The translations under genes were made by a program, and so were the position numbers. Shown piece after piece: positions 2,118-31,864 of a DNA stretch of 64,000 nt. The notes below the pieces were generated by a model, which was not told the DNA's origin, made no database searches, and saw only the letters and a program-made list of their open reading frames with translations. This stretch comes from Persicaria tinctoria (lineage: Eukaryota > Streptophyta > Magnoliopsida > Caryophyllales > Polygonaceae): the NCBI GenBank assembly GCA_037127255.1, contig JBANSL010000003.1, positions 45,505,314 to 45,569,313 of the forward strand, written 5' to 3'. Position 1 is the first letter of the stretch, and every line of letters begins with the position of its first letter.

Positions 2118-2123
<6 letters not shown>

Positions 2124-2177: not shown

Positions 2178-2179
<2 letters not shown>

Positions 2180-2418: not shown

Positions 2419-2423
<5 letters not shown>

Positions 2424-2473
<50 letters not shown>
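2424..2473. repeat. TA dinucleotide microsatellite
   Basis: A TA run lies just before tctattctctatatc, at the junction between the 90-bp extra segment and the next array unit. Confidence 0.9.
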
Positions 2474-2475
<2 letters not shown>

Positions 2476-2734
2476 ATTCTCTATATCAACTCTTAATTTA
2501 GAAGAGTTTAGGATGATGTGTCAATTTTAGAGGCATTTTAGGAGTCTTGACCAATTTTTTTTTTTTTTGCCATTTTTCTTTGACTTTCTTTAATTCTCCT
2601 TTTTTTCTTCTTTTTCCTTTAATTTTATTGTTTCTTTAATTTTTCTAACTATCTATATCTATATCTATATAAACTCTTAATTTAGAAGAGTTTAGGATAA
2701 TGTGTTAATCTATATAAACTCTTAATTTAGAAGA

Positions 2735-5700: not shown

Positions 5701-8700
5701 TTAGGAGTCTTGACCAATCTTTTTTTTGCCATTTTTCTTTTATTTTCTTTAATTCTCCTTTTTTCTTCTTTTTCCTTTAATTTTATTTTTTCTTTAATTT
5801 TACTAACTATCTATATCTATATCTATATATAATCTATATACACTCTTAATTTAGAAGAGTTTAGGATAATATGTCAATCTTAGAGGCATTTTAGGAGTCT
5901 TAACCAATCATTATTTTTTTTTGCCATTTTTCTTTGATTTTCTTTAATTCTCCTTTTTTCTTCTTTTTCCTTTAATTTTATTTTTTCTTTAATTTTACTA
6001 ACTATTGGGCTTAATTCAAAACATAAAATTAATAATAAGAAAATATAAAATTAATATTACTAATCTATATCTATATCTATATCTATTCTCTATATAAACT
6101 CTTAATTTAGAAGAGTTTAGGATGATGTGTCAATCTTAGAGGTATTTTAGGAGTCTTGACCAATCTTTTTTTTATACCATTTTTCTTTGATTTTCTTTAA
6201 TTCTCCTTTTTTCTTCTTTTTCCTTTAATTTTATTTTTTATTTAATTTTACTAACTATATATATCTATATCTATATAATCTATATCTATATATCTATACA
6301 AACTTTTGATTTAGAAAAGTTTAGGATTATGTGTCAATATTAGAGGCATTTTAGGAGTTTTGACAAATCATTTTTTTTTTTGCCATTTTTCTTTGATTTT
6401 CGTTAATCCTCCTTTTTTCTTCTTTTTCTTTTAATTTTATTTTTTCTTTAATTTTAGTAATTTCTATATCTATATAAACTCTTAATTTAGAAGAGTTTAG
6501 GATAATGTGTCAATATTAGAGGCATTTTAGGAGTCTTGGCCAATCTTTTTTTTTTTTGCCATTTTTCTTTGATTTTCTTTAATTCTCATTTTTTCTTCTT
6601 TTTCCTTTAACTCTATTTTTTCTTTAATATTACTAATTATCTATATCTATATAAACTCTTATTTTAAAAGAGTTTAGGATGATGTGTTAATCTTAGAGGC
6701 ATTTTAGGAGTCTTGACCAATCATTTTTTTTTTTTTTGCCATTTTTCTTTGATTTTCTTTAATTCTCCTTTTTTCTTCTTTTTCCTTTAATTTTACTAAC
6801 TATCTATATCTATATATATATATAATCTATATACACTCTTAATTTAAAAGAGTTTAGGATAATTAATGTGTCAATCTTAGAGGAATTTTAGGAGTCTTGA
6901 CCAATTATTATTTTTTTTTTTTTGCCATTTTTCTTTGATTTTCTTTAATTCTTCTTTTTTCTTCTTTTTCCTTTAATTTCATTTTTTTCTTTAATTTTAC
7001 TAACTGTTGGGCTTAATTCAAAACATAAAATTAATAATAAGAAAATATAAGATTAATATTACTAATCTATATATTTATATATCTATTCTCTATATCAACT
7101 CTTAATTTAGAAGAGTTTAGGATGATGTGTCAATTTTAGATGCATTTTAGGAGTCTTGACCATTTTTTTTTTTTGCCATTTTTCTTTGACTTTCTTTAAT
7201 TCTCCTTTTTTCTTCTTTTTCCTTTCATTTTATTGTTTCTTTAATTTTTCTAACTATCTATATCTATATCTATATATTCTATATCTATATAAACTCTTAA
7301 TTTAGAAGAGTTTAGGATAATGTGTTAATCTTAGAGGCATTTTAGGTGTCTTGACCAATCTTTTTTTTTTGCCATTTTTCTTTGATTTTCTTTAATTCTC
7401 CTTTTTTTCTCCTTTTTCCTTTAACTTTATTTTTTCTTTAATTTTACTAACTTCTATATAAACTCTTAATTTAGAAGAGTTTAGGATAATGTGTCAATCT
7501 TAGAGGCATTTTAGGAGTCTTGACCAATCTTTTTTTTTTGCCATTTTTCTTTGATTTTCTTTAATCCTCCTTTTATCTTCTTTTTCCTTTAATTTTATTT
7601 TTTCTTTAATTTTACTAACTATTTGGCTTAATTCAAAACATAAAATTAATAATAAGAAAATATAAAATTAATATTACTAATCTATATCTATATCTATATC
7701 TATTCTCTATATAAACTCTTAATTTAGAAGAGTTTAGGATGATTTGTCAATCTTAGAGGCATTTTAGGAGTCTTAACCAATCTTTTTTTTTTGCCATTTT
7801 TCTTTGATTTTCTTTAATTCTCCTTTTTTCTTCTTTTTCCTTTAATTTTATTTTTTCTTTAATTTTACTAACTATCAATATCTATATATATAATCTATAT
7901 CTATATACACTCTTAATTTAGAAGAGTTTAGGATAATGTGTCAATCTTAGAGGCATTTTAGGAGTCTTAACCAATCATTATTTTTTTTGCCATTTTTCTT
8001 TGATTTTCTTTAATTCTTCTTTTTTCTTCTTTTTCCTTTAATTTTATTTTTTCTTTAATTTTACTAACTATCTATATCTATATAAAATCTTAATTTAGAA
8101 GAGTTTAGGATGATTTGTCAATCTTAGAGGAATTTTAGGAGTCTTGACCAATCATTATTTTTTTTGCCATTTTTCTTTGATTTTCTTTAATTCTCCTTTT
8201 TTCTTCTTTTTCCTTTAATTTTATTTTTTCTTTAATTTTACTAACTATTGGGCTTAATTCAAAACATAAAATTAATAATAAGAAAATATAAAATCAATAT
8301 TACTAATCTATATCTATATCTATATCTATTCTCTATATAAACTCTTAATTTAGAAGAGTTTAGGATGATGTGTCAATCTTAGAGGCATTTTAGGAGTCTT
8401 GACCAATCTTTTTTTTATACCATTTTTCTTTGATTTTCTTTAATTCTCCCTTTTTCTTCTTTTTCCTTTAATTTTATTTTTTATTTAATTTTACTAACTA
8501 TATATATCTATATCTATATAATCTATATCTATATATCTATACAAACTTTTGATTTAGAAAAGTTTAGGATTATGTGTCAATATTAGAGGCATTTTAGGAG
8601 TTTTGACAAATCATTTTTTTTTTGCCATTTTTCTTTGATTTTCGTTAATCCTCCTTTTTTCTTCTTTTTCCTTTAATTTTATTTTTTCTTTAATTTTACT

Positions 8701-11700
8701 AATTTCTATATCTATATAAACTCTTAATTTAGAAGAGTTTAGGATAATGTGTCAATATTAGAGGCATTTTAGGAGTCTTGGCCAATCTTTTTTTTTTTTG
8801 CCATTTTTCTTTGATTTTCTTTAATTCTCATTTTTTCTTCTTTTTCCTTTAACTCTATTTTTTCTTTAATATTACTAATTATCTATATCGATATAAACTC
8901 TTATTTTAAAAGAGTTTAGGATGATGTGTTAATCTTAGAGGCATTTTAGGAGTCTTGACCAATCAATTTTTTTTTTTTGCCATTTTTCTTTGATTTTCTT
9001 TAATTCTCCTTTTTTCTTCTTTTTCCTTTAATTTTACTAACTATCTATATCTATATATATATAATCTATATACACTCTTAATTTAAAAGAGTTTAGGATA
9101 ATTAATGTGTCAATCTTAGAGGAATTTTAGGAGTCTTGACCAATTATTATTATTTTTTTTTTGCCATTTTTCTTTGATTTTCTTTAATTCTTCTTTTTTC
9201 TTCTTTTTCCTTTAATTTCATTTTTTTCTTTAATTTTACTAACTGTTGGGCTTAATTCAAAACATATAATTAATAATAAGAAAATATAAGATTAATATTA
9301 CTAATCTATATATTTATATATCTATTCTCTATATCAACTCTTAATTTAGAAGAGTTTAGGATGATGTGTCAATTTTAGATGCATTTTAGGAGTCTTGACC
9401 ATTTTTTTTTTTTTGCCATTTTTCTTTGACTTTCTTTAATTCTCCTTTTTTCTTCTTTTTCCTTTCATTTTATTGTTTCTTTAATTTTTCTAACTATCTA
9501 TATCTATATCTATATAAACTCTTAATTTAGAAGAGTTTAGGATAATGTGTTAATCTTAGAGGCATTTTAGGTGTCTTGACCAATCTTTTTTTTTTGCCAT
9601 TTTTCTTTGATTTTCTTTAATTCTCCTTTTTTTTCTCCTTTTTCCTTTAACTTTATTTTTTCTTTAATTTTACTAACTTCTATATAAACTCTTAATTTAG
9701 AAGAGTTTAGGATAATGTGTCAATCTTAGAGGCATTTTAGGAGTCTTGACCAATCTTTTTTTTTTGCCATTTTTCTTTGATTTTCTTTAATCCTCCTTTT
9801 ATCTTCTTTTTCCTTTAATTTTATTTTTTCTTTAATTTTACTAACTATTTGGCTTAATTCAAAACATAAAATTAATAATAAGAAAATATAAAATTAATAT
9901 TACTAATCTATATCTATATCTATATCTATTCTCTATATAAACTCTTAATTTAGAAGAGTTTAGGATGATTTGTCAATCTTAGAGGCATTTTAGGAGTCTT
10001 AACCAATCTTTTTTTTTTGCCATTTTTCTTTGATTTTCTTTAATTCTCCTTTTTTCTTCTTTTTCCTTTAATTTTATTTTTTCTTTAATTTTACTAACTA
10101 TCTATATCTATATATATAATCTATATCTATATACACTCTTAATTTAGAAGAGTTTAGGATAATGTGTCAATCTTAGAGGCATTTTAGGAGTCTTAACCAA
10201 TCATTATTTTTTTTGCCATTTTTCTTTGATTTTCTTTAATTCTTCTTTTTTCTTCTTTTTCCTTTAATTTTATTTTTTCTTTAATTTTACTAACTATCTA
10301 TATCTATATAAAATCTTAATTTAGAAGAGTTTAGGATGATTTGTCAATCTTAGAGGAATTTTAGGAGTCTTGACCAATCATTATTTTTTTTGCCATTTTT
10401 CTTTGATTTTCTTTAATTCTCCTTTTTTCTTCTTTTTCCTTTAATTTTATTTTTTCTTTAATTTTACTAACTATTGGGCTTAATTCAAAACATAAAATTA
10501 ATAATAAGAAAATATAAAATTAATATTACTAATCTATATCTATATCTATATCTATATCTATTCTCTATATAAACTCTTAATTTAGAAGAGTTTAGGATGA
10601 TGTGTCAATCTTAGAGGCATTTTAGGAGTCTTGACCAATCTTTTTTTTATACCATTTTTCTTTGATTTTCTTTAATTCTCCTTTTTTCTTCTTTTTCCTT
10701 TAATTTTATTTTTTATTTAATTTTACTAACTATATATATCTATATCTATATAATCTATATCTATATATCTATACAAACTTTTGATTTAGAAAAGTTTAGG
10801 ATTATGTGTCAATATTAGAGGCATTTTAGGAGTTTTGACAAATCATTTTTTTTTTGCCATTTTTCTTTGATTTTCGTTAATCCTCCTTTTTTCTTCTTTT
10901 TCCTTTAATTTTATTTTTTCTTTAATTTTACTAATTTCTATATCTATATAAACTCTTAATTTAGAAGAGTTTAGGATAATGTGTCAATATTAGAGGCATT
11001 TTAGGAGTCTTGGCCAATCTTTTTTTTTTTTGCCATTTTTCTTTGATTTTCTTTAATTCTCATTTTTTCTTCTTTTTCCTTTAACTCTATTTTTTCTTTA
11101 ATATTACTAATTATCTATATCGATATAAACTCTTATTTTAAAAGAGTTTAGGATGATGTGTTAATCTTAGAGGCATTTTAGGAGTCTTGACCAATCAATT
11201 TTTTTTTTTTTTGCCATTTTTCTTTGATTTTCTTTAATTCTCATTTTTTCTTCTTTTTCCTTTAATTTTACTAACTATCTATATCTATATATATATAATC
11301 TATATACACTCTTAATTTAAAAGAGTTTAGGATAATTAATGTGTCAATCTTAGAGGAATTTTAGGAGTCTTGACCAATTATTATTTTATTTTTTTTGCCA
11401 TTTTTCTTTGATTTTCTTTAATTCTTCTTTTTTCTTCTTTTTCCTTTAATTTCATTTTTTTCTTTAATTTTACTAACTGTTGGGCTTAATTCAAAACATA
11501 TAATTAATAATAAGAAAATATAAGATTAATATTACTAATCTATATATTTATATATCTATTCTCTATATCAACTCTTAATTTAGAAGAGTTTAGGATGATG
11601 TGTCAATTTTAGATGCATTTTAGGAGTCTTGACCATTTTTTTTTTTTTGCCATTTTTCTTTGACTTTCTTTAATTCTCCTTTTTTCTTCTTTTTCCTTTC

Positions 11701-12600
11701 ATTTTATTGTTTCTTTAATTTTTCTAACTATCTATATCTATATCTATATAAACTCTTAATTTAGAAGAGTTTAGGATAATGTGTTAATCTTAGAGGCATT
11801 TTAGGTGTCTTGACCAATCTTTTTTTTTTTGCCATTTTTCTTTGATTTTCTTTAATTCTCCTTTTTTTCTCCTTTTTCCTTTAACTTTATTTTTTCTTTA
11901 ATTTTACTAACTTCTATATAAACTCTTAATTTAGAAGAGTTTAGGATAATGTGTCAATCTTAGAGGCATTTTAGGAGTCTTGACCAATCTTTTTTTTTTG
12001 CCATTTTTCTTTGATTTTCTTTAATCCTCCTTTTATCTTCTTTTTCCTTTAATTTTATTTTTTCTTTAATTTTACTAACTATTTGGCTTAATTCAAAACA
12101 TAAAATTAATAATAAGAAAATATAAAATTAATATTACTAATCTATATCTATATCTATATCTATTCTCTATATAAACTCTTAATTTAGAAGAGTTTAGGAT
12201 GATTTGTCAATCTTAGAGGCATTTTAGGAGTCTTAACCAATCTTTTTTTTTTGCCATTTTTCTTTGATTTTCTTTAATTCTCCTTTTTTCTTCTTTTTCC
12301 TTTAATTTTATTTTTTCTTTAATTTTACTAACTATCTATATCTATATATATAATCTATATCTATATACACTCTTAATTTAGAAGAGTTTAGGATAATGTG
12401 TCAATCTTAGAGGCATTTTAGGAGTCTTAACCAATCATTATTTTTTTTGCCATTTTTCTTTGATTTTCTTTAATTCTTCTTTTTTCTTCTTTTTCCTTTA
12501 ATTTTATTTTTTCTTTAATTTTATTAACTATCTATATCTATATAAAATCTTAATTTAGAAGAGTTTAGGATGATGTGTCAATCTTAGAGGAATTTTAGGA
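2735..12600 (+). repeat. Higher-order repeats of about 2.2 kb inside the array
   Basis: Diagnostic variants recur at fixed long spacing. gccatgtttc occurs near 2797 and 4986 (about 2.19 kb). A gaggagttt variant occurs near 3476 and 5662. The tcaattttagatgcatttta variant occurs near 7130, 9370 and 11606 (about 2.24 kb). Blocks of roughly ten or more base units were therefore copied as a whole: one block twice (about 2735-4917 and 4923-7106), and a second block twice plus a partial third copy (from about 7107, 9347 and 11585). Confidence 0.8.
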
Positions 12601-12695
12601 GTCTTGACCAATCTTTTTTTTGCCATTTTTCTTTCATTTTCTTTAATTCTCCTTTTTTCTTCTTTTTCCTTTAATTTTATTTTTTCTTTAATTTT

Positions 12696-12701
<6 letters not shown>

Positions 12702-12772
<71 letters not shown>
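12702..12772. repeat. TA dinucleotide microsatellite
   Basis: The longest TA run in the window, again at a unit start in the array. The poly-YI reading frame that crosses it is an artefact. Confidence 0.9.
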
Positions 12773-12775
<3 letters not shown>

Positions 12776-14806
12776 CTATATACACTCTTAATTTAGAAGA
12801 GTTTAGGATAATGTGTCAATCTTAGAGGCATTTTAGGAGTCTTAACCAATCATTATTTTTTTTGCCATTTTTCTTTGATTTTCTTTAATTCTCCTTTTTT
12901 CTTCTTTTTCCTTTAATTTTATTTTTTCTTTAATTTTACTAACTATTGGGCTTAATTCAAAACATAAAATTAATAATAAGAAAATATAAAATTAATATTA
13001 CTAATCTATATCTATATCTATATCTATTCTCTATATAAACTCTTAATTTAGAAGAGTTTAGGATGATGTGTCAATCTTAGAGGCATTTTAGGAGTCTTGA
13101 CCAATCTTTTTTTTTTACCATTTTTCTTTGATTTTCTTTAATTCTCCTTTTTTCTTCTTTTTCCTTTAATTTTATTTTTTATTTAATTTTACTAACTATA
13201 TATATCTATATCTATATAATCTATATCTATATATCTATACAAACTTTTAATTTAGAAAAGTTTAGGATTATGTGTCAATATTAGAGGCATTTTAGGAGTT
13301 TTGACAAATCATTTTTTTGTTGCCATTTTTCTTTGATTTTCGTTAATTCTCCTTTTTTCTTCTTTTTCCTTTAATTTTATTTTTTCTTTAATTTTACTAA
13401 CTTCTATATCTATATAAACTCTTAATTTAGAAGAGTTTAGGATAATGTGTCAATATTAGAGGCATTTTAGGAGTCTTGACCAATCTTTTTTTTTGCCATT
13501 TTTCTTTGATTTTCTTTAATTCTCCTTTTTTCTTCTTTTTCCTTTAACTTTATTTTTTCTTTAATTTTACTAATCATCTATATCTATATAAACTCTTAAT
13601 TTAAAAGAGTTTAGGATGATGTGTTAATCTTAGAGGCATTTTAGGAGTCTTGACCAATCAATTTTTTTTTTGCCATTTTTCTTTGATTTTCTTTAATTCT
13701 CCTTTTTTCTTCTTTTTCCTTTAATTTTATTTTCTTTAATTTTACTAACTATCTATATCTATATATATATATAATCTGTATACACTCTTAATTTAAAAGA
13801 GTTTAGGATAATTAATGTGTCAATCTTAGAGGAATTTTAGGAGTCTTGACCAATTATTATTTTATTTTTTTTGCCATTTTTCTTTGATTTTCTTTAATTC
13901 TTCTATTTTCTTCTTTTTCCTTTAATTTTATTTTTTTCTTTAATTTTACTAACTGTTGGGCTTAATCAAAACATAAAATTAATAATAAGAAAATATAAAA
14001 TTAATATTACTAATCTATATATATATATATATTCTCTATATCAACTCTTAATTTAGAAGAGTTTAGGATGATGTGTCAATTTTAGAGGCATTTTAGGAGT
14101 CTTGACCAATTTTTTTTTTTTTTTTTTTGCCATTTTTCTTTGACTTTCTTTAATTCTCCTTTTTTTCTTCTTTTTCCTTTAATTTTATTATTTCTTTAAT
14201 TTTTCTAACTATCTATATCTATATCTATATAATCTATATCTATATGAACTCTTAATTTAGAAGAGTTTAGGATAATGTGTTAATCTTAGAGGCATTTTAG
14301 GTGTCTTGACCAATCTTTTTTTTTTTTGCCATTTTTCTTTGATTTTCTTTAATTCTCCTTTTTTTCTCCTTTTTCCTTTAATTTTATTTTTTCTTTAATT
14401 TTACTAACTATTGGGCTTAATTCAAAACATAAATTTAATAATAAGATAATATAAAATTAATATTAGTAATCTATATCTATATCTATTACTTTAATTGTTT
14501 TCTCAACCAATCTATATCTATCTCTATATAAAGTCTTAATTTAGAAGAGTTTAGGATGATGTGTCAATCTTAGAGACATTTTAGGAGTCTTAACCATTCA
14601 ATTTTTTTTTTGTCATTTTTCTTTGATTTTCTTTAATTCTCCTTTTTTTTTTTTCCTTTAAAATTAATATTAGTAATCTATATCTATATCTATATATATT
14701 ACTTTAATTGTTTACTCAACCAATGGGTTTAATTTAAAATATTTAATTATCTGAATTTTTACTATTATTTTATACTATTAATTTAACATATTTCGAAGAT
14801 TTCATT

Positions 14807-14963: not shown

Positions 14964-15339
14964 TGTAACGGCCCGGGATTATGATTCCCGAGTTACGTTT
15001 CGAGGGATAAAACCCCTCGTTAGGATCTTGCGCTCCGAGTACAGGTTGAAGGTTTGAAATCGAAGACGTGCAGTTTAAAGTGGGATTTCGCACCCAAATC
15101 CGGAAGGTCCGTTGGAGACCCCGGGGTAAACCCTTGTACCTGTCCTAAGTCTACAACGCGGAAAATCCTTTATCATGCAAAGGGCATAAGTTCTGAAAAC
15201 GATACAACGGGCGCCACGGCAGAGCCGGGTCAAAACAGAGTACAAGTAGGGAGAAATCTCAAAAGCATGAATCTGGTGAAGTCAGGTTTCAAACACTCAC
15301 TCTCCGCCATATGAATGGACCCCGTCACCATAGCACAAA
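14964..15339 (-). repeat. Element A left LTR, outer part (first 376 bp)
   Basis: Nearly identical to 42321-42696 of the right LTR. It stops at ...tagcACAAA, where element B is inserted; the right LTR continues through the same point uninterrupted (ACAAAGTCAAGC at 42692). Confidence 0.9.
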
Positions 15340-18278
15340 TGTAACGGCCCAGAATTATGATTTCCGGGTTACGTTTCAAGGGATAAAACCCCTTGTTCGG
15401 ATCTTGCAATCCAGGTACGGGTCGAGGTTTTAAACTCATTTTAGGATTAGTGGAAAGAGGGATTTCAAACCCTAAAAACCTCGAAGGGCCGTTGGGTACC
15501 CTTGACCTGTCCTAAGACTATGTCGCGGAATCCATTTCAAACGAAAGTAAGGCGAAAACAGAGTAAAGATACAAGTGTCACGGAAGAACCGGTCAAAACT
15601 AAAGCATGAGTGTTTAATTACCATTTGCCGAGTTAGAATATTAGTCAGGTCCTTTGATTCGCCCAAGGGTTTCCCGTCACATAAGCATGGAGCAAACAAG
15701 ATCTGCAGAAATACCTTTAAAAGAAGAACGGGGAAAGGAGTCAGATCGAGCCACTCATGCGGGACCGGCAGTCCTCGCTGAGGCCACATAGTATGTGCTA
15801 TACCTAATAAAGATGCTCTAATGCAATACGAAAGTCAAACACACTAGCATGCTCCTAATTCATAAAATGTGCAAAAATACTGTAAAGGGCCCAAGACAAT
15901 GCCAACGGCATATCCCTCTCCTACTCCGCCCCCTTTTTCATGAGCGGACCTGGCCAGCACGGTACCCATTTCATCGTGGTGGTGCACGGACCACGGAATC
16001 ATCATATCATATCATCTCATCACTTGCCCGATGGTGCTGGGCTATAGTAATAATGACTCGATTGACTCAGGGTACCCGATGAGGCTGGGCTACCCTATGA
16101 CCCTAGAAAAGACTCTAGGACTATCACAGATAACGGCCGTTCTGTTTCAATCACATAAAGTAAACGGATGCTCAATCAATTAGTGCAACCTAAACATGAT
16201 ACTACATGGCATGCTTTGATGCATATGCAACACCTAACATAAAATGCAACAACAGGCATGAATGTCCAACCTGAGTAAGCCCCCTAGGGAACTTACCTGA
16301 AAGTGCAGAACAGCAAAATAACGCAAGCAAGGGCCCAAGTGCAAGTCCAACGCAATCCAACCGCAATACAAACCTATCATCAATCCATTTCCATAAGTCA
16401 CCGGACCAACATTCATACACACGAAACTCAAGTTCTCAACATCCTCAAAACAAATCGATGGTAAAACCATTTTCAAACTCCCTTCTCAAAACCAACATTA
16501 TTAAACCAAGTCAAACATTAAACACTTAAACCTTAAACCAATCTCTCCAAATCATTTTGTAGAAATAATTCCGGCATTTTGATTTTCAACAATAAATCAT
16601 TTAGGAGATAATTCCGGGAAAATTGAAAACCCTTTTAACTAGTTTATCAACCTAACAACACATCATCAATATGTTATCCCAAAATCCTCAAAAATACATA
16701 TTCCACAAAATGTCACTTTTAAAATAATTTTATAATCCATAGCATTTTCCGGAAAATATAACTCTCAAGACAAAATAATATAATAATACTAACAACAATT
16801 AACCATTAAAACTAATCGCATAATATAAGTGCTTCACGTAACCTAGATATGCATAACTAATTAAAACTAACAGTTAATAACAACAACACATAAAAACAGG
16901 CCCAATCCCATAATGACCCAGATCCGGCCCAAGAGGATGTCCAAAGGAATAAATGATTCAGATCCCCATCTTCTTCCTAACGACAGACGGATCTGTTGAA
17001 TCGGAAGGAAAGCCGGAGGAAGGAAAGAGAAGAGCTCGGTCTCCGGTGGTCCGTTCGACTCGAAACTTTACCCAGGTGATCGGAATAAGATTCCGACCAC
17101 AACCCGACCTCAAAGGAGAAAGAGAGACAAGAAATAGGAAGGGAAGAGCGAGCTTACAGTGAGGGCTGATTTCCGCCGGAGAGCGCATGATTAGTCCGAT
17201 GCGGCTGCGCTGGCTTCAATCGACGGGGAGGGAAGGCTGGAAACGGACCTAGGATGAAGGAAGGAGTAAGTAAAGGTGCATTTTGAGTTTCGAATCGGGA
17301 AAAACAAGACGGAAGCCAGACCGACCATTGTGCTCGGAACAGGGGGAAAAGAGGCTCGCGCGGCTCCGAGGGCTCCGGGAGGGCTTCGACGACGAGGGGG
17401 AAAGCTTCGGGAGCGCTCCTGGGGCTGCTGGTTGCTGCTGCTTCGAAGGGAAAGGACGACAGAGGTGGGACAGGGGAGTTCTGGCTGCTGTTAACAACGA
17501 CAAGGCGAAGAGAACAGGCGCGTTCTGGGCTCCTTTGGTGGCTGGCGGTGGCGCTCCGGGGACGCCGCTCACTGAAGGAGGAGGCTGGAAACGAGTGGCG
17601 GAGACCTGGATTGGCTCGGCCTTGGCCTGAAGAAACAGGGCTGCTATGCGGTTCTTGCTCGCGGAAATCCGGGAAGGGGCGGCGTCGAAAGCGAAAAGAG
17701 AAAGGGAGCAGGGAGGCTGTGGGTTTTGACAGTACAGAGAAGGGGAAAGAGGGAGAGATGTGTGGTTTGGTGGGTGAAAGTGAGGGCAAGGGAGCACATG
17801 TATGATGTATACAAAGGAGGAGGTTGAGAGTGAGGACCACACAGCTGTATTTGTAAATCGGAATTGCAGGAGAGAAGCTGGGATCTCCTCCACAGTCTGA
17901 TGCTCACCGAGAGACAGAATTAAAGAAAATAAGAAACCCACAAATTAGAGAATGGTTCCCCACTAAATAATTCAAAATAGCGGAAATAGACTCGAAACCT
18001 GTTCGCTCGACAAATCCCGACTAAATCAATTTAAATCAAATTCTCGAACCGAACAAATAATGGAACTAAGTCATACTATCAAAGTTCAGCACGCGGAAGC
18101 GAAAATAAATCCGACTAAAAGTCCATTTAAAAGAAATATATGCCGGAATCTTTTTTTTTTTTAAAAGATTTGAATAGAATAATCGCTCGAGGACGGTTAT
18201 TTCAGAAAGTTTCTAATCGAATTAAATAAAATTAGTCATAATAATAATATAATGATTTTTAAATTTACGGTCTTTACA
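15340..18278 (-). repeat. Element B 3' LTR, 2.94 kb
   Basis: Runs from TGTAACGG to ggtctttaca on the plus strand. It contains a GC-rich domain at about 16960-17840 inside otherwise AT-rich sequence. A 10-bp inverted pair, TCGAGGTTTT (15422-15431) and AAAACCTCGA (15475-15484), lies 82 bp in from the end; it is exactly where the duplicated terminus at 21185-21411 folds back. Long frames across the GC-rich part look compositional and are not called. Confidence 0.85.
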
Positions 18279-21168
18279 TTCATCCACCTCTAAAAACAAG
18301 TCTCGTCCCCGAGACTAAAATCATTCTAAAACATGGGGATGAAGTTTGAAATTGGTGAGTCCAAGGATCATGCCATTGATCCCGTAAGCATCTCATAGGT
18401 GCACCTATAAGGCCCTTACAGTACCTTCGTCATGATCATGATATCCCCAATGGGTCGTAATAAGTATGTGATATGGGCCCTTATCACATTCTTATCACAA
18501 TTTCTCGGTTATATCATAACTCGAAAGCATCATAACGAAAATCCCATTATGAAAGTCCAATAAGGTGTTGAAATAAAAGGTTGAACTTGAAATCCCTGAA
18601 ATTCTCGATAGTGTTTATCCCTTTAAAATCCAAGCTAGCCCTTTTCAAAACCGTTCACAATCTTCAAATCCAACTTCCAGGCAAGCAATTTCAGATCACG
18701 TGAGGTGGAATCATCCACCTCTAAGGGCTAATCCCATATTCTCTTCCTAGTTTCCAGAATCATTCCATCATCATTCTCACTCAACATGAACAAAAGTGAA
18801 TCAACTCATCAACTCATAGTATCACCCGCCACCTCTCATATGGCAGATCTCAACATTAATCATGATAATCGCAACCAATCGACATCTCAACCGCTTAACA
18901 TGTTTATCCATAACATAAATCATATCATCTCTTCAGAACATGCCAAAAGCAATAACAAAATCTCAACATCATACCATGAGTCACAAAGCATAACTACATC
19001 ATACTGAAGGCACCACAAGTGCATAATCGAATTATCATAACCTATCATGCAAGCACACATGTCAAGAGATCAATGGGCCAGATGTCACGGGGTTAGTAGG
19101 TCAGTACACTTCGAATTTCACGATCGCATGGCATCGCAATACAAGTAGATCCAGTCATAGCAGATTTACCATGCCAACATATCAACACAACAAGGTCATG
19201 CTATTATGAGTTAGAAAAAGAAATGTCTAACGATAAGTCAACCATCAAAAGACAGGCATATTCACCAAACATCATCTTAACTCATCACAATGTCATGTAA
19301 CGATCATTTAGAAGTCTGGTATCATTATCTCATATATACACATCATATTCATCATTTAATATATCCATAGTCATGCTTAACGATAATATATCATAATATC
19401 ATGCTTATCACCACATAACATAACATCATGCTCTCACATAATAACACAACATTATCTCATACATCATATCACAACACATCCTAACATTCTCCTAAAACAA
19501 CATAGTAGAACATCAATATATCATGATAACATTTGTGACTACCAGCTAGATTTCAATATTGCACAACAACATGTAATATTATGTAAGCAAGAAAATCCTC
19601 ACGTCATCACCACTCAAAATGAAACGCAATCCCCACTCGCCCGATTTCAAATTCCCAAATCAAAACCAGCCTCATTTAATTTCAGCAACATCAGCTCAAA
19701 TAATATCCCCTAAAGGAAGTCACAATCCATCTCGATACTCCAATCTCGCTCCCCATTCCACCAAGCACTCTCACTAGCCATCCACCTCTAAGAATCCAAC
19801 TCCTATCTCTAACATCACACCCGAGTACCCTCTCATATTATATCTTCACTTCTCTTAAGGCCATTTCTTACACCTCTCACACTGCTCAAGGTTTCACAAG
19901 CATCCTGCCCGGTCTGCTAACCACACATCTTCTCTAGAAATTCCTCGATCATCGCCTAGCCGACCTGTTCATAACCCTACCCTCACCCAAGATTCACCCC
20001 TAATCTCATCGGAACCACCCAAGCATTGCCTCTTATAAGTCTCAAACTCACTCGGTCTTACCTAAGCCACCATCGTTTTCCTGCAACTCGACCTTATAGC
20101 ACCATCGATCATCCTAACGACTCAAATCCCTTCACCACTTTCTTACCACTCCACAAAAGTATTTCACCCACAAGTTCAAAAGAAGGAATCATGGACATTG
20201 TTACACATAAGGACTACATCATCTTGACTAGCATCCATAACATCATGAGTTCATTATCAAGCATTGCAACTATGTCAAAAGTCTCAATTTACCGGCATGC
20301 TTAATAATTATTGCAAAACATCATATATGAGCATAGTCTAGCAAATTTCATCATAACCTTATCAGATAACAGTTCAGGTTCTCCGCAATTGCAATTCACA
20401 TTTTATAGGCAAAAAATTTAGATCATGCTTAGCAACTCATATTATCATCGTATCAAGACAGTATGTCACATTAGAATCGTAAGGCATCAAATCATATCAT
20501 CATAGACAACGGATAGTCAAGCAACATTCATGTGTTATGCGTATGCGAAATCATGATATGGCGTGGTGTGTGATCATGCGGGGTGCCAAGTTATACATCT
20601 ATGCAAGCACGAGAGGATATCATAGAGTAAGAGGGAACACTACTGAGCAACAACATGTAAGCACGCTAGGATTAACCATTACAGAAAGCAAGTCAATTAT
20701 CGAATTCAACATCAATTAATCCTGCATGAGTAAGACATGTTATGGTAATAGAAAGAGAGAAGAACCACACTATCAGGAACCTAGCTCGAGAGAGGATCAA
20801 CAACAATGCAGACAAGGTATAATTCACATGAGTAACAGCCAAGGATCCTACCTAACTCGCCACTCCAGCCACCTTGGTGCAATCTCCTTGGAGTCTTCCG
20901 GACCCTCTGTAAAGAACAAGCTAGTATTTTGCCTATCCATTCCCGACTACATCCAATAGGGATGGTATTACCGCCTTTTTACCCTTTCGTTCCCCATTTG
21001 TACGGTTTTCCTCTTTTATTACAAGTCGAGTTCATTACTTAGTCCAATTTCGGTTAGGCATCTTAAGTTCATTTTGCCCTTTTAAAACACTTTCAAATCC
21101 TTTGAAATTCATGGGCAGTTTTCCAAAACATTCACTCGACCCTTGTGTACCCGAATTGCACAACCTGA
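18279..21168. other. Element B internal region, non-coding
   Basis: About 2.9 kb rich in cat/atc trinucleotides with only short frames. The minus-strand PPT (agaggtggatgaa) abuts the LTR at 18279, and ctcggggacgaga follows in from it. The first 270 bp match element A from 24171 (shared phrases such as gatcatgccattgatcccgtaag). No gag, protease, RT or integrase motif is visible. Confidence 0.75.
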
Positions 21169-21180
21169 GCTCTGATACCA
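21169..21180 (-). other. Element B primer-binding site (initiator tRNA-Met)
   Basis: The minus strand reads TGGTATCAGAGC, the usual complement of the 3' end of plant initiator methionine tRNA. It lies four bases from the LTR terminus at 21185 and fixes the element's orientation. Confidence 0.9.
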
Positions 21181-21184
21181 TCTT

Positions 21185-21411
21185 TGTAACGGCCCAGAAT
21201 TATGATTTCCGGGTTACGTTTCAAGGGATAAAACCCCTTGTTCGGATCTTGCAATCCAGGTACGGGTCGAGGTTTTTAGGGTTTGAAATCCCTCTTTCCA
21301 CTAATCCTAAAATGAGTTTAAAACCTCGACCCGTACCTGGATTGCAAGATCCGAACAAGGGGTTTTATCCCTTGAAACGTAACCCGGAAATCATAATTCT
21401 GGGCCGTTACA
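21185..21411. repeat. Snap-back inverted repeat replacing the 5' LTR of element B
   Basis: Arms 21185-21276 and 21320-21411 are 92-bp inverted copies of the LTR terminus that appear perfect by eye. The 43-bp spacer (21277-21319) is the reverse complement of 15432-15474. The structure equals LTR positions 1-92 joined to the reverse complement of positions 1-145, sharing the 10-bp TCGAGGTTTT at the junction. The right arm ends exactly at the target duplication. Confidence 0.92.
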
Positions 21412-24170
21412 ACAAAATCAAGTAGTGTATCGGGTACCTGAAACTATACCACTAAGTCAGGCCAAGAGTCCGCCCACGGGTCCTCTGACCGCGCTGAGGA
21501 CATATAATACGCCTATACCTAGAATAAAGGATGCCTTCATGCATTACTGAAATATTAACCACACTATCATGTTCCTAATTCATATGTGCAGAATATTAAG
21601 TAAGGCCTTAACAAAGAATACCAAGTGGTATATCCCTCTTCTACCACCACCCCTCTTCCAAATAGGGTGGAGACTGGCCAGTTCGATACTGTAGCATATC
21701 AAATCTCATCATCATATCGCATCTCATGCTCATCTCGTATCTCATGCTCATCTCGTATCTCGTGATATATATATATAACTCAAGGAGGGCAACACCCGAT
21801 GAAACTGGGATGCCCTATGACCTTAGAAAGGACTCTAGGACTCACAGATAACGGCCGTTCTGTATTAAAACGCATACAGAATAAGAATGCTCATTCGTAA
21901 GTGCAATTCCTAAGCATGATACTACATGGCATGCTCTTATGCATATGAAACACCTACATACTATATGACACATCAGGCAGGAGGTACTGGTTACTGAGTA
22001 AGCCCCGGAGGTACTTACCTGGCTAGCAGACCGGCAACGGAACAATCCATCACACAGTATTCAGAATCACAGAGTATCACCTAGTACATAATGGAATATA
22101 CATAAGTCTACATTCAACTATTAAGCACTCAAGCACACCTCAATCAATAGAACAAGTAACATATTATGAAAGTCATTTCATCGCATCATCCACTCCTCAA
22201 GACCACATCGTTCTCCATAAATCATTCAACCAATTATGCATGTTCATATATGTCATTTCCGCATATACCTCAACGGTTCATCAAAATCATAAGACATAAT
22301 TTGTGTGATTTAAAATCCTACTAGATCGCCATAATTATCCAATATTTAATCTCATATAATAATTCACCACAAGTCATGCTATTAGTCGTACATATCATAC
22401 TATTAGTCAAACGAGCATATTATCATGCTAGTTAATCATCGAATAACTCTTATTCCCAAGTTAGTTTCAAAACCATTTCAAATTCCAGTTAAATAGTTAA
22501 GTATTCCGACCCTTGAAAATACTCGCCAAATTCCCTTTTAAATTTATTTATCAGATTACTTTCCAACCTTGAAATTCTTTTCAAAATTCATTATAAATCT
22601 TTAAGTCCCCGCATAATAGTATAGACATTTTAAACACCATTTATTAGCACACTTTTATAAAATATTCCCGAATCCCTTAAAGTCCAAATCATTTTTATTT
22701 AATAAACCAACCCTTAATAAATCTCTAAAATTAATACTTTATCTCTTAAATCCTCAAATACTATTATAATATATTTTAATTATCGCTAATTAGTTAAATA
22801 ATAAACGGATAACCCGAACCGTACCGAACCGAACCCGTATAAATAATCCCACCCGGTTCAATCAACAATTTCAATAAAATAAACTTAAGGGATGTGGGGC
22901 CCACGGGAGTCATCCCCTTCCTTCTTCCCCGGATTCAAAAGGAGAACATCTCGCCATAGCCTTGCTCCCGCTCCCGCCGGCAAGGATCGACGTCGAGCGC
23001 TTCTCGCCTGCTCGTCTGTTCGTCTGCTCGCCAGGACTCGCCCAGCAGCGCCCTCAGCTCAGCCTCCGATCGCGTCTGCGTCCTCACCGCTCTGCCTCGC
23101 CAGTTGCTGCTCGCTCACGTCCGCTCAGCCTCCTCGCTTGCTGGAGATCTCGCCGGAGGTTCCGAGCTCACCCGGCGCCCCGCACTCAGCTCACGCTCAC
23201 TCGACACTCGCCCACAGCCCAACCCAAGACATAATCGACTCGAAACAGAGGAGGGAAAGGCGGAAGCTTACCGAGGGAGTTCGCGTCTTCGGGGCATCGT
23301 CGGAGCTTATCAGAGGCTCGATTCACATCGTCGGATATGGAGGAATCTCGGGGTCATCCTAGGAAGGGTAAAGCAAGGTTAAAGAAGTGTGATACCATGG
23401 GATTTTGAACCGAATGAGAGATCGAACTCATCGAACTCGGAGGAGAAAACAGGGGAACGGAGAGGACGTCGGGGCTGCGCTCTCAGCCTTCGGGCTCTTC
23501 AGGGCGGCGTTGCTGCTCAGGGTGTCGAGGAGACATAGGACCTTCTGCTGGTGGCTCCAAGGGATGTCGAAGGTCGTGGTTGTGTTCTCGGGGAGGTACA
23601 GAATGAGGGTGACGAAGTAGATGGAGCCGTCGATGGTGGAAGGTGATGAAGATGGTGGCCACGATGATAGTGATGAAGGAGGAAGGTGGCGATGTGGTGA
23701 TGCGTGAAGGAGATGACGGTGATGGTGAATGAAAATGATGGGAAATGAGTGATCTGTAGGAGGTAGGGTGAGGTGAGGGAGTTGGTGATGACGATGAATG
23801 AAGCATGACAGGGTAAGGGGGTGAATTGAAGGGTATGGTGAGTGATGGGAGTGGGTGAGCATTGTGTGAAATTGGTTAAACCAATACCCGGAAATAAATC
23901 CCGAATACGCGGATTTTGAATTACGAAATTAGTTTCCGAAAGTTAGTTTCCCCGACTCTCGCTTTCTCGATCAATTAGATTTTTAAAATCGACAAGGATA
24001 TTGCCATCCGATAATTATTTTGAATTTTTGAGGTAAAAGGATGGCAATTATTCGTCAAATTTTATATTCCGGTCGGAATTCGCTAAACGAGTTTTAAAAC
24101 CGATTAAATTTCATTTTTAATTCTCTTTTTCTGAAAAAAAAATTAGGATTTTAAAATCCGAGCCTTTACA
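21412..24170 (-). repeat. Element A left LTR, inner part
   Basis: After the ACAAA duplication the sequence resumes the LTR of A and matches 42697-45417 nearly base for base, differing by small indels (for example an extra copy of atctcatgctcatctcgt near 21720-21765 and a 12-bp indel near 23140). It contains a GC-rich island at about 22890-23620. Ends agcctttaca next to the PPT. Confidence 0.9.
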
Positions 24171-25768: not shown

Positions 25769-28700
25769 TGTTGAACAAAAATGCGCAATAATCATACAAC
25801 ACATTTTATTTGATTTTTAATATTTGAGTCCGACGCCTTTTGGTTATCCTCTTGATTCGAAGTCATATCGATACCAAGATTTGAGTGGTTTTGGTAATTT
25901 GGGTTGCACCCGAAATTTGACGGGTTGCCTACGTATCTCTTGGAAGAGAATCAAGCCTCACGTAGTTCAGAGTGGTTGGGTTTTGTGTTTGGTTTGGTTT
26001 GGTTTGGATTTGGTTTCGTTTTCTTATATGCATCATAGGATGAAGTTCAAGCCCACCTTCTAGGAAGGGTAGTTCGAACAACACTCCACCCGAGTGACCT
26101 GAGCCCACCTTCTCGGAAGGGTAACTCAAGTAACCCGCCTATCATTTGCATAGAAAACGATTTGGTGTGGTATTTGATTTGACTTAGAGGTTTGACTTAA
26201 GGGTCAATTTGGGGATGGTGAAATTTGATTTTGATTGTTGGTCGTGACCAAACTCGACGAGCGGAAGCTTTATATCGAGTTAGAACGGACACTTTGGTTT
26301 TGATGGAAGATTTAACATCTGGGACGACTAGAGTCGACAAATGAATTTGGAAAGATTTATTTGAAGGTTTGGACATGACTGGACTCGGTGAGAATTTGAT
26401 TTACACCGAGTTTCCTACGTATCCACTTGTTTAGTGGAATCAAGTCATCGTAGTTCTAAACGAAAAGAAATTCTGTATTTGGGTTTGATCATGGGATCAT
26501 TTGAGGGTGGTGATGGAACTCGATGAGCAGAAGCTTTGTATCGAGTCGGAATGGACCATTTAAATTTGTTTGATTTTGACCTCATATTCATTTAAAGGGA
26601 ATTTAGAGGTTGACGACTGTACCCGATATATTTTTAGAATTTAATATCGGGTTACCTACGTAGCCGATAGGAGGCTTCAAGTCTTTACGTAGTTCTAAAA
26701 GAAGAACAAATTTGATTTTATTTGTTTTTAACCTCATATTCATTTAAAGAGAATTTAGAGGTAGACGACTGAATCCGATATATATTGAATTTTAATATCG
26801 AATTTCCTACGTAACTCGTAAAAGAGTATCAAGTCTTTACGTAGTTCTTTTTGAACTGATTTATTTTTTGTTTCGGTGATTGAACCCGACGAGCTTTTTG
26901 CTTTATGTCGAGCTACCTACGTACCCGTTTGGACGGGATCAAATCTTGCGTAGTTCTGCCTGTTAAGCGAGTTTATATTTGGTGGAACTCGATTTGAGGT
27001 TTTGACTCCGTCTTTGTTTAAGAGCCGACTTGAGATTGACCCACTAGAATTAACCGGCCAAGAATTTTATAAGTCAAAATTTATAGACTTGAATTCTTAA
27101 CATGTGCCGATTATAATTCTCATATTTTAGTGGGTATGTTTTGCAATTAAGCAAATTTCTCAAATATGCTAAAAAGCATATACGGGTGTATTATATGTAT
27201 GTAAATTGTTGGCTGCAATCATTCTCCATGTGCCGGGTCCAATCATTTATAATTTTCATTTTGTAATTGTTTAAACCCATTTAATTTACTTGTGTAATTT
27301 TGCAGCAATAATGTTGTCCCGTGCTGTTGCTTTTGCTCAGCAATTGAGTTCGCTTTTTTCATCAGTACACCGCCATAGCCACACCTCAAAGAGAGGTCTC
27401 CAAATTAACCGACGGCCACACGCCCGTAAACGCCAAATTCAAGGGGGTTTCATGGGTAATTTCCTTGTGACGGGATCTGTAATTTGAACAACTCGAAGGC
27501 GGAGAGCATGGCTAAGCTTGTGAGATGGGACCCGATTGCAGCTAGGAGATTTTGGGGACCGTCGAGCCGATCACGGTAGTCTGTCCGCACAAGATGACTC
27601 GCGGCATACAACGCCTCTGTGACAGAGCCATAGAACAGCCCCTTTTCAGGTATGTGTGATCTCGTTCTACCCTCTGTCCCTCCCATTCTGCTCTCTAATT
27701 GCTGGATTGATTTCATCCCACTTGAGAGTTGAAACCTTCATTTGCTTAACTCTCTCAAGCCCCCTTTCATTTGATCCGATTTAGGCTTCGGAAAACGAAA
27801 ATTAGGGTTGTGTTTGTTGATTTGGGTTTCGGGAAAATTAGGGTTGATTTTGATAGCTTATAATTTGGGAATTTTTGGGTTTAGGACAGTTGAAGGAGGC
27901 TACAAGGGAGGCTAATTAGAGGCCCGGAGTGTCCCGACCTTGAGCGAAACCACGCAGCAAGGACTCACTTGAATCCTCCGTTGCGACCATACAATGCTAG
28001 AGGCGTCCTGAGCTTTGGCGTCCGAGCTCGGTAAGTAAAGCTCAACTTTGCCTTTGTTTCCTCTGAATCATGGTCTCAAACATATGTTGACTTTGATTTG
28101 TCTCAATTTCTCCCATGAACTCCAAATTTGTTTTTTTTTTTGCATTTTTCTTTTATGCTTTCCCTGGAATCCCTCTGAGATAGGCTTGATTCCTGTGGAT
28201 TTTGACATGGAGAATCTGATTTCCCATGTCCAGGATCAATTTGTGTGCCATTGAGCCCTTGGAAAATTCATCTCTCCTCATCTGCTGCTCATCTGGATTG
28301 CATTAGCTTACTTTGCAACTTGTTTTGGTTTGGGTTGAGGAAGCAGGAAGCACCATTTTTGTCCACAATTTTAGTTCTTTCCAGTTGCTGTGCTTGTGTT
28401 GTTTTACAAAACAGAACTTGTCCCATATTCAGTTTGTTTTTATGGAATTCGACATTTTCCTTGTTTATGAATTCCGAGTAAAATCCGGCAGCCTTTCGGC
28501 GCTATGAATCGATCCACGCCGGGATCGGGGTAGCGACGAGAGACTAAACTCTCGAGCCGCTAATGCTTCCGTTTGATTTCCGGTTTCGTTCATTTGTTTT
28601 TTTGTGCCTGCAGATAAAGAAGAAACAGCAAAGGTTAGGAGATGGATCTTCTACCTCTTGCAATAGAGGTATCTCTCTCTGCACTCCCTTTCTCCACTCT

Positions 28701-29296
28701 CTCTCCCTCGCCCTCTCTGTGTATTCTCTCTTTGCACTCCCTTTCCGCACTCACTCTTTCCACTCTCTCTTTGTTTTGGCGGTTGCAGGTTCACGCCTAG
28801 GAGTATGAACCAAGAAGAAGAAGAAAGAAGCCCTTCTGGAGAAAGAAGAAAGCCAACCGGGGAAAAGAAAGGAACAGGTTTACTGCTTTTGTTGATGTTG
28901 GGGGACTTTTGCTTCTTCTTTTTTTGTTGTGGTTGTAGGCGAATGCTTGGGAAAAAAGAAGATGAAACTGCAGCCAGACACTTTATGGAGGAATAGGGGC
29001 AGTTATCATTCACTTAGGCCACGAACACAAAATAACTGTACTTAGTTTTTTTTTGTTAACTGCACTTGTAACTAGGAATACAGTTACCACTTGTAACCTC
29101 CCATTTCAGCCTTTTGTTTTTTGATACATGTGGGCCTGACAGGATTGGGCTTACCATGGAATTGTTTTAGGTCCGATTTGGATTTGTAGACCTGTGTTTT
29201 AATTTGCGAAATTTTTACCACATTTTTTATAGAATGACTGTGATAAATTTAGTTATGCCATGAATAATAAAATTCATGAAATTTTACCCTCCAACA
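25769..29296. mobile_element. Nested LTR-like element (probable solo LTR), 3.5 kb
   Basis: Starts TGTTGAAC and ends CCTCCAACA, so the termini are TG...CA with a 5-bp inverted TGTTG/CAACA. AAGCT is duplicated at 25764-25768 and 29297-29301, and the other copia LTR has a single AAGCT at the same place. I find no PBS, PPT, internal LTR repeat or coding domain, so a solo LTR is the simplest reading; a non-autonomous LARD is the alternative. The left third carries repeated hairpin modules. 28560-29000 is rich in purine/pyrimidine tracts with intron-like tttgcag and gttgcag sites, but no convincing exon. Confidence 0.75.
25905..26957. repeat. Five repeated double-hairpin modules with conserved CCTACGTA...ACGTAG
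   Basis: CCTACGTA occurs at 25928, 26414, 26655, 26806 and 26916, each followed 24-27 bases later by CGTAGTTC. Between them lie a small variable hairpin and a conserved atcaa(g/a). Upstream of each is another hairpin whose right arm ends just before CCTACGTA. Stem sequences differ between copies but stay complementary. Related single hairpins are at 26251-26281 and 26518-26546. Confidence 0.8.
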
Positions 29297-30154: not shown

Positions 30155-31864
30155 TTAGTCATCCGGAGCATCATCAGTGAGCCTCGTCCACAGTCCTTCC
30201 AGCATCTTTGAAATCCCGCTCATCGTCGTCATCACCTCCTTCTGCAGCTCCTTAATATCCAGGCGAACTTCCTCCAAGCCCAACTCTAGGTTGTCCATGC
30301 GTTCATCGAAAGCTGGAGCAGTGGGAAAGGCTTTTGAAGGAGTGGCAAGACTCAAGGTCCCTTGGGGAGACCGAGTGATGCCAATCTTTTCAAGGCCTTT
30401 AGAGTCGAACTTACCCGTATGACGCAACTGTTCTTCATTTTTGACATCAATTCCAGAAGCTTTGAAGATAGGGGTCAAAAGGGTAGCAAAGGGGAGGGGA
30501 GAGCCTTTTCTGGCTTTTCTGGCATGAGCCATGGTTCCAAGGATAGTGTTGGCCAGATCAGGATCAAAGCCATTGAGAATGCGGTAGAGCAGTACCATGG
30601 CATTGTCAGTAAGGAGTGAGCCAGAGTTAAGACGGGGTAGGAGGCATCTAACCATGATGTTAAAGGTAATTTTTGCCTCAAGGGTTAGGGATGAGTGGGT
30701 GAGTTGCTTTGAGGTGCTGTTGGATGCTTCAGGTAGGAGATATTTGGCTCGGGCTAGGATGATGCAATTTTCTTTTGAGGGGTTTATTTTAGCGGGTGGA
30801 ACTGGTGTAGGTAAGCCTAGGGAATCTGCAAAATCATTGGAGTTGAGAGAGATTCTAACCCCTTTGACGACAGACTCCAAAGACCAACCATCAGTGTCGT
30901 TTTTGGCTTTTAGGTTAATGTAGAAAAGTCGGGTAAGCTCGGGGTAGTAAAAAGTCTCAAGGTTAAGAAGGTTCCAGGCTGGGGATTTTTTAAGGAGCTC
31001 AATGCAAGGTAACGTCAAAGCTTCAAAGAACTCAACATCTAAAAAATTAGAACAACTAATCTTACGAGTTCGAAACTCGTCTACCCACTTACCAGCAGTC
31101 TCAGCATCTTGAAACCAAGAGGAGGGCAAGGATTGATTTACCTGGATATAGGCCGGGGGGTCTGCATTCTTTTTGCGCGCAACTGTTGGAGCAGCTCTCT
31201 TGACAGGCGCTGCAAGACTCTTGACAGTGCCCTTCCTGGTGCGCTTGGGGGATGGAGGCTTGACAGGAGCAGGGGCTTTCCGCTTCTTCGGAGACGGGGG
31301 AGGAGGAGAAGGAGAGGGAGATTCTTCCTCCTCTTCCTCAGACCCCGAGTCCTCAGCGGACCCCGCGTCATCTCCTTCTGGTTCCTCGTCCTCTCCAGAT
31401 CCCTCTTGCTCCTCTTCTTCTTCTTCCTCAGGCTCCACCTCGGATGGAACCTCTTCGGCTTCGGCTTCCTTCCGAATCCGTTCAGCTTCTTCCTCGGCCT
31501 GTTTCTTAGCAAGTTCGGCCTCCTCATCGGCCTTTTTCTGCCTTAAGGCCTCCTCCTCGGCTTCTCTGGCAGCATCTCTTTCCAGGGCGGCATCAAGGTC
31601 GTCTTCCTCTTCTTCCTCGTCCTCTTCCTCAACCAAGATCTTTCTCTTCCCCTTTTGTTTAGCACTCAGGGGTTTCTTAGCAGCGCGCTTCTGAGAGCCT
31701 TTGGGAGCCGTGGTCGTGCTCGCCGTAATGGTGCTCTGGACAACGGCTGGGATGATGGCTTGAGTAGCAGGTTCGGGTGTGGGAGAGGTAGCAGTGGCCT
31801 GGCGTCCCTTGGGGGTGGCGCCAAGTCTTTTGGGAGTGACAACTTTCTTGGTTTTGGGTGCCAT
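30155..31864 (-). CDS. Envelope-like third-frame protein of the SIRE-type element (intact, 569 aa)
   Basis: A complete frame between RNase H and the 3' LTR, where SIRE-type copia elements carry an envelope-like frame. Visible layout: basic, Ala/Thr/Pro-rich N-terminus (1-75); very acidic, Glu-rich segment with helical AEEEA-type repeats (78-182); Ser/Pro and Lys-rich basic linker (183-232, for example SPKKRKAP); a globular part (about 240-500) containing YYPELTRLFYINL (306-318), a signature shared with plant retroelement envelope-like or putative plant transposon proteins; and a C-terminal coiled coil (about 522-562). I see no signal peptide or clear transmembrane segment, so a membrane-fusion role is not supported by sequence. 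It is uninterrupted although the neighbouring pol is broken. The Met start fits because stops precede it and the N-terminus is compositionally continuous. Function is unknown. Confidence 0.75.
   Translation of the reverse strand: MAPKTKKVVTPKRLGATPKGRQATATSPTPEPATQAIIPAVVQSTITASTTTAPKGSQKRAAKKPLSAKQKGKRKILVEEEDEEEEEDDLDAALERDAAREAEEEALRQKKADEEAELAKKQAEEEAERIRKEAEAEEVPSEVEPEEEEEEEQEGSGEDEEPEGDDAGSAEDSGSEEEEEESPSPSPPPPSPKKRKAPAPVKPPSPKRTRKGTVKSLAAPVKRAAPTVARKKNADPPAYIQVNQSLPSSWFQDAETAGKWVDEFRTRKISCSNFLDVEFFEALTLPCIELLKKSPAWNLLNLETFYYPELTRLFYINLKAKNDTDGWSLESVVKGVRISLNSNDFADSLGLPTPVPPAKINPSKENCIILARAKYLLPEASNSTSKQLTHSSLTLEAKITFNIMVRCLLPRLNSGSLLTDNAMVLLYRILNGFDPDLANTILGTMAHARKARKGSPLPFATLLTPIFKASGIDVKNEEQLRHTGKFDSKGLEKIGITRSPQGTLSLATPSKAFPTAPAFDERMDNLELGLEEVRLDIKELQKEVMTTMSGISKMLEGLWTRLTDDAPDD

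Follow-up and report, generated by a model that had tools for sequence, protein, structure and literature searches.

Retrotransposon copies with U5 at both outer ends in Persicaria tinctoria probably record inverted strand switching on minus-strand strong-stop DNA

Hairpin strong-stop DNAs are formed during the early reverse transcription of cauliflower mosaic virus. Like the structures described here, they are early hairpin products of reverse transcription in plants; they are not known to be integrated. Self-priming of strong-stop DNA is reportedly, according to their titles, the subject of Guo 1997, Driscoll and Hughes 2000, and Golinelli and Hughes 2001. In HIV-1, the self-priming of minus-strand strong-stop DNA and its suppression by nucleocapsid have been described (passages of PMC4668388), and in this TAR-linked reaction the strong-stop DNA likewise folds back and is extended on itself. 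Passages of PMC3141651 treat the product as aberrant and call its formation "a suicidal reaction", and self-priming products were not formed under the assay conditions given in passages of PMC5198506. Unlike in HIV-1, such products, or versions of them made from two molecules, form integrated ends in the elements reported here.

Abnormal switching of reverse transcriptase has been inferred from the structures and duplications of the template-switch complex LTR retrotransposons of plants (Sabot and Schulman 2007, passages of PMC1950507). As described in these passages, the complexes are fusions containing three LTRs, whereas the switch described here inverts polarity and produces a 5' LTR with a U5-U5 organization. 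In HIV-1, 26 of 88 proviruses have asymmetric LTRs, 24 of them combining an intact 5' LTR with a partly deleted 3' LTR; a two-RNA model is offered for the asymmetry, and a figure legend names proviral inversions (passages of PMC9278108). These proviruses, too, are integrated with unequal LTRs; however, an LTR with an inverted U5 is absent from the descriptions in these passages. An integrated U5-U5 or palindromic-LTR element was found neither among the titles and abstract openings searched, which come mostly from outside subscription journals, nor in a scan of IMG/VR for the U5 terminus, which gave zero matches. The terms "self-priming" and "strong-stop" both occur in a paper on fungal Copia elements (PMC5445492).

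The window is a 64,000-nucleotide stretch of the Persicaria tinctoria genome. It contains element B, a minus-strand copy of an LTR retrotransposon at positions 15340–21411, nested in the 3' LTR of the related element A. The 3' LTR of B (15340–18278, minus strand) is 2,939 bp long, with its U5 end at 15340 (TGTAACGG on the plus strand) and its U3 start at 18278 (TGTAAAG on the minus strand). The polypurine tract (PPT) AGAGGTGG (18284–18291, minus strand) is located 5 nucleotides before the U3 start. The internal region (18279–21184, minus strand) has a length of 2,906 bp, and no complete stop-to-stop frame longer than 109 amino acids lies inside it in the open-frame listing. Therefore, B is taken as non-autonomous, as judged from its reading frames. 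The primer-binding site (PBS) TGGTATCAGAGC (21169–21180, minus strand), which we take to be of the initiator-Met type, is separated from the LTR end by 4 nucleotides, AAGA.

B carries the marks of insertion by an integrase, with the PBS and PPT adjoining the LTR boundaries. The 5-bp duplication ACAAA is present at 15335–15339, next to the 3' LTR end, and at 21412–21416, next to the anomalous 5' LTR end. The host LTR of element A is split by B into a U5-side piece (14964–15339, minus strand), which includes the duplicated target at 15335–15339, and a U3-side piece (21417–24170, minus strand). The other LTR of element A, its 5' LTR (42321–45417), preserves the empty site with a single ACAAA at 42692–42696, and the joined flanks of B differ from it by two substitutions over the 60 bases shown. 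The clean duplication at two U5-type ends and the empty site, both read earlier from the sequence of the window, are thus confirmed. Element A is an ordinary insertion with ACAAC at both sides, and its LTRs differ at 50 of 3,096 aligned sites. A long array of diverged tandem repeats (400–14700) lies to the left of element A. Elsewhere in the window, a 3.5-kb insertion (25769–29296, TGTTGA...CCAACA) with an AAGCT duplication is located within an LTR of a copia-type element and looks like a solo LTR. A 569-residue-long frame (30155–31864) matching the Pfam family Transposase_32 (PF20167) adjoins copia-type pol frames on the same strand. Direct repeats at 51399–52076 and 63323–64000, which are 98.5% identical, flank a region with a Retrotrans_gag frame (53437–54471); the right copy is cut by the end of the window.

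The standard layout of an LTR element has direct LTRs, with a U3 end on one side and a U5 end on the other; by contrast, both outer ends of B are U5. B also departs from the layout of the template-switch complexes, with their three LTRs and two internal regions, because it has one internal region and an inverted U5. Siblings of B were sought in the 1.68-Gb Persicaria tinctoria assembly, where 40 of 485 candidates were scored and the family counts are at least those given. Three of five sibling stretches (L008, L009, and L010) have a full 5' LTR with the outer U3 end TGTAAAG, and 5-bp duplications CTTTT, AATTC, and TCTAT, respectively. The other two (L011 and L012) have no outer U3 end of the 5' LTR inside the stretch examined and are left out of the intact siblings. 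Since the intact siblings have outer U3 ends, the U5 outer end of B is the anomaly.

The 5' LTR of B is 227 bp long and is composed of 92 nucleotides of U5 joined head-to-head to an inverted U5 that ends at ACAAA. The PBS-side arm (21185–21276, minus strand) is identical to 15340–15431 in 92 of 92 positions, and 21277–21411 is the exact reverse complement of 15340–15474. The alignment of the region 15340–15490 to 21185–21411 and to the reverse complements thus gives two exact pieces that explain all 227 bases, in agreement with the sequence-only reading of B as an element with a normal 3' LTR, PPT, internal region, and PBS, but with a 92-bp U5 terminus and its inverted copy in place of the 5' LTR. 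The flank-side inverted arm including the loop (21267–21411, plus strand) is the reverse complement of 15340–15484 and has the 10-bp pair in common with the PBS-side arm. Among exact inverted pairs lying within 5 kb of each other, the 93-bp arms of B are the longest in the whole window.

The switch occurred at an inverted pair with the first arm TCGAGGTTTT (15422–15431) and the second arm AAAACCTCGA (15475–15484), the latter of which would represent the 3' end of the switched minus-strand strong-stop DNA. The pair had been proposed as the fold-back point from sequence inspection, and it is indeed exact; no other 10-bp inverted pair is present in the terminal 400 nucleotides of the LTR of B. 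A homology of at least 10 bp occurs at random fold-back points in 31 of 200,000 draws. In the predicted fold of the 145-nucleotide strand ending at the pair, the 3' end is paired within the 10-bp stem, both in the minimum-energy structure and in the centroid structure. The stability of the whole fold is unremarkable (z −1.45; 14 of 200 shuffles are equal or better); the z-scores are −2.34 for the opposite strand and −1.85 for RNA. At position 15431, B has T and the U5 copies of the siblings first compared have C. These siblings carry TCGAGGTTTC at the pair, which is 9 bp instead of 10 bp long (shifted by one base in L011). The T is not private to B, being shared by five of seven further siblings, which were picked partly for matching the stretch around 15431. 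No TATA is seen by eye near the putative 3' end of the strong-stop DNA, and a transcription start exactly at 15484 is therefore unsupported; we attribute the stop to pausing, to a break in the template, or to the point in time at which the inverted pair can form.

What can be read directly in the DNA is the two-piece anatomy, the inverted pair, the U5 end on each side, the PBS, the duplications, and the fact that the pattern recurs; from these, we infer an order of events and its intermediates. It is highly probable that inverted strand switching on minus-strand strong-stop DNA generated a product with U5 at both ends, whose PBS was used for transfer and which was then integrated. The tRNA-primed strong-stop DNA would copy the U5 segment containing inverted pairs, and its 3' end would anneal by short inverted complementarity either to itself, in a snap-back, or to a second strong-stop DNA in the particle. 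Extension back through U5 and the tRNA-paired PBS would give a product with U5 at both ends and the PBS at its 3' end. This product would stand in for the PPT-primed plus-strand strong-stop DNA at the second strand transfer, and would serve for the completion of a minus strand that had been synthesized in the usual way from a different strong-stop DNA. The resulting cDNA would have a U5 end on each side, and integrase would join both to the target, generating the 5-bp duplication. The loop orientation in B is that predicted by a snap-back of minus-strand strong-stop DNA followed by transfer through the PBS, and a bypass of PPT priming in B is possible. The AAGA between U5 and the PBS is missing at the integrated U5 end of B, which indicates that its processing was that of an ordinary U5 end. 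Natural U3 ends and natural U5 ends both carry TGTAA, and this shared sequence may explain the acceptance of a U5 pair by integrase.

The 18-nucleotide junction string of B has two exact matches in the genome, and its reversed control pattern has one; a third place, which matches the string with one mismatch (L015), has no similarity to the element. A gapped junction pattern identifies the same two places, with none for its control. The second junction place (L023/L024; C19:19066261–19069721 of G000) is composed of a 3,334-bp LTR (19066261–19069594), AAGA, and a portion of the fold-back product that terminates with U5 at 19069721. GAAGG is present both before the U3 start and after the U5 end. 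The extension is identical to the first 122 bases of B in 122 of 122 positions, whereas the U5 region of the LTR at this locus is 95.9% identical to B, which suggests, as far as sequence comparison can indicate, that the locus was made from two different RNAs. Lacking an internal region, it resembles a solo LTR formed later from an element with extended LTRs. It is possible that the locus represents a second fate of the same hairpin DNA.

Facing U5 ends with total lengths of 141–437 nucleotides were sought by exact patterns in the same 1.68-Gb genome. The scans identified 11 distinct places at 141–201 nucleotides, six at 197–257, and two at 257–317, the last range being scanned with a slightly narrower pattern; the reversed control patterns for the 141–317-nucleotide ranges had zero matches. 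The exact-pattern scans for totals of 317–377 and 377–437 nucleotides gave zero matches. Ten of the 19 distinct places are U5-like: B, L027, L028, L029, L031, L033, L036, L037, L053, and L054. The remaining nine (L030, L032, L034, L035, and L038–L042) start with TGTAACAACC and were dropped from the counts by eye. The TGTAACAACC places include head-to-head repeats of constant length, 192 nucleotides in L032, L034, L038, L039, and L041 and 141 nucleotides in L035 and L040. Several look like copies of one repeat, and those of constant length are perhaps short elements with inverted ends that are unrelated to B. The sequence-only reading had placed B outside any known class; with nine more U5-like places in the genome, B is instead one of a recurrent kind.

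The PBS is one-sided in nine of the ten U5-like places, with one changed base in L037, and is present on both sides in L028. Leaving B aside, eight places are one-sided; the far end was found in six of them, each with a matching 5-bp duplication: GTATT in L027, CCCAC in L029, ACTAT in L031, GAATC in L033, ATTTA in L037, and ATATA in L036, the last being the weakest because of its AT-rich surroundings. The genome search for further inverted-terminus members with target-site duplications, suggested along with the first description of B, thus adds six, and with B included the duplications match in seven of seven places where the far end was reached. The exact PBS-U5 junction string TCTGATACCANCTTTGTAACGGCC occurs 3,993 times in the genome (2,004 + 1,989), and its control does not occur. 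It is present in seven of the nine one-sided cases (B, L027, L029, L031, L033, L036, and L053); L037 and L054 differ from it by a base, and one side of L028 carries it. Within the length ranges scanned, the U5-U5 copies thus account for 7 of 3,993 exact PBS-U5 junctions, which is at least about 0.18%.

The recurrence bears on two explanations that place the anomaly outside reverse transcription. Fold-back palindromes are a known form of artefact, and the junctions here were read from the assembly alone. However, to produce this pattern, a fold-back read would need to have lost about 2.7 kb of the LTR while bringing the inverted U5 end precisely to the duplicated target, and this at each of seven loci; an assembly palindrome or library artefact is therefore rejected as extremely improbable. 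It is also very improbable that an ordinary B was inserted and that template switching during replication or repair later exchanged its 5' LTR for an inverted U5. The TGTAA common to U3 and U5 ends could serve as microhomology for the first jump, and a replication model for inverted amplification has been published (PMC4689423). Such a rearrangement would nevertheless take two jumps, of which the first must hit the LTR terminus exactly, and would have to recur at seven loci whose duplications still match, and the loop of B is wrongly oriented for a fold-back begun on the PBS side; it is rejected on these grounds.

The anomalous 5' LTR of each of the seven elements was compared with the 3' LTR of the same element. 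Two pieces account for 227 of 227 bases in B, 217 of 217 in L029, 155 of 155 in L033, 155 of 156 in L036, 173 of 173 in L037, 215 of 215 in L027, and 236 of 239 in L031. The PBS-side arm is the shorter one, the order expected of an intramolecular snap-back, in four of the seven: B (PBS-side arm 82–92 nucleotides, flank-side arm 135–145, shared pair 10 bp), L029 (91–97, 120–126, 6 bp), L036 (3–11, 145–153, 8 bp), and L037 (39–43, 130–134, 4 bp). The other three have the reverse order, with the long arm adjoining the PBS: L033 (144–152, 3–11, 8 bp), L027 (171–174, 41–44, 3 bp), and L031 (160–161, 78–79, 1 bp). In L033, L027, and L031, the strand from U5 copied at most 11, 44, and 79 nucleotides, respectively, before the switch, and the template reached 144–174 nucleotides. 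This arm order implies that the template of the switch was another molecule, and intramolecular snap-back as the sole route is ruled out by the long PBS-side arm in these three cases. The same 8-bp pair was used in opposite orders by L033 and L036.

The junction homologies of the set sum to 40, relative to a random mean of 5.0, and none of 100,000 draws reaches 40. The end-joining of unrelated fragments is rejected because random junction homology is too small for the set as a whole. Some of the switch points show weak pairing, the junction homology being 1 bp in L031 and 3 bp in L027. The longest inverted pair in the first 180 nucleotides of the LTR end was used by B and L036, and the longest available pair was not used by L027, L029, L031, L033, or L037.

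The self-priming of minus-strand strong-stop DNA that had been proposed for B stands in part: the loop orientation and the stem-paired 3' end fit it, but L027, L031, and L033 need a second DNA. Snap-back and two-molecule switching are indistinguishable in B; snap-back is one of the routes, and the three cases with the reverse arm order require a switch from one DNA to another.

Both arm orders, including that of the three elements with the long arm beside the PBS, could also be explained by a later switch. After a normal second transfer, the 3' end of the minus strand copying the 5' LTR would jump from the plus strand to a free minus-strand strong-stop DNA and run to its 5' end, giving the same sequence without a U5-U5 product serving as plus-strand strong-stop DNA. 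We consider this course of events unlikely, because such a switch would leave the PBS-side arm free to end at any point of the 2.9-kb LTR, whereas this arm is at most 174 nucleotides long in seven of seven measured cases. Furthermore, scaling from nine one-sided cases per 176 nucleotides gives about six matches at 317–437 nucleotides, where none was found. The longer arm is 126–174 nucleotides long in all seven elements, and this range, together with the zero matches at 317–437 nucleotides, argues against a switch during the later copying of the whole LTR. The lengths fit the derivation of both arms from a putative minus-strand strong-stop DNA of about 175 nucleotides, for which zero matches at 317–437 nucleotides would be expected. 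Inverted switching on strong-stop DNA is thus the reading preferred here.

Three U5-like places differ from the seven measured cases. L028 (G000:C11:5853606–5853823 and its flanks) is an inverted dimer with the PBS and internal sequence on both sides, 841 bp of which are 96.9% alike. Its fold region is the same as that of L029, and L028 may have arisen when a longer minus strand folded back. In L053 and L054, the switch is located close to one and the same GGTCCGTTGGAGACC loop, and both are outside the 4:3 count of arm orders; comparison of L054 with the LTR of element A (242/296) put the long arm on the PBS side, and the loop orientation read opposite. The arms of L054 differ at several bases, which indicates either a greater age of L054 or an origin from two RNAs. 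One stretch was examined for each far end: nothing of the family was present in that of L053, and that of L054 contained another LTR end followed by PBS-like sequence. Nesting is likely at these two loci.

Self-priming of strong-stop DNA has been treated as a dead end prevented by nucleocapsid; in the cases described here, what it yields, or a counterpart made from two molecules, has entered the genome repeatedly. Annotation software that searches for pairs of direct LTRs would probably classify these copies as truncated. The elements in which the PBS adjoins the long arm point to two strong-stop DNAs per particle, and the finding bears on the neighbouring question of minus strands begun on both RNAs. 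For HIV-1, initiation on the second RNA is given, citing others, as about three times rarer, and the frequency of plus-strand strong-stop DNA on both RNAs in vivo is called unknown (passages of PMC5651808). The chances appear evenly balanced that U5-U5 elements are a recurrent class recording strong-stop switching in the particle, in which reverse transcription starts on both packaged RNAs, each strong-stop DNA primes on the other or on itself at inverted pairs in U5, and a U5-U5 cDNA is accepted by integrase in vivo. The copies provide a countable genomic record of strong-stop errors and of the precise in vivo integration of U5-U5 cDNA. If this reading is true, counts of U5-U5 copies would be a measure of the failure of the nucleocapsid chaperone in natural populations.
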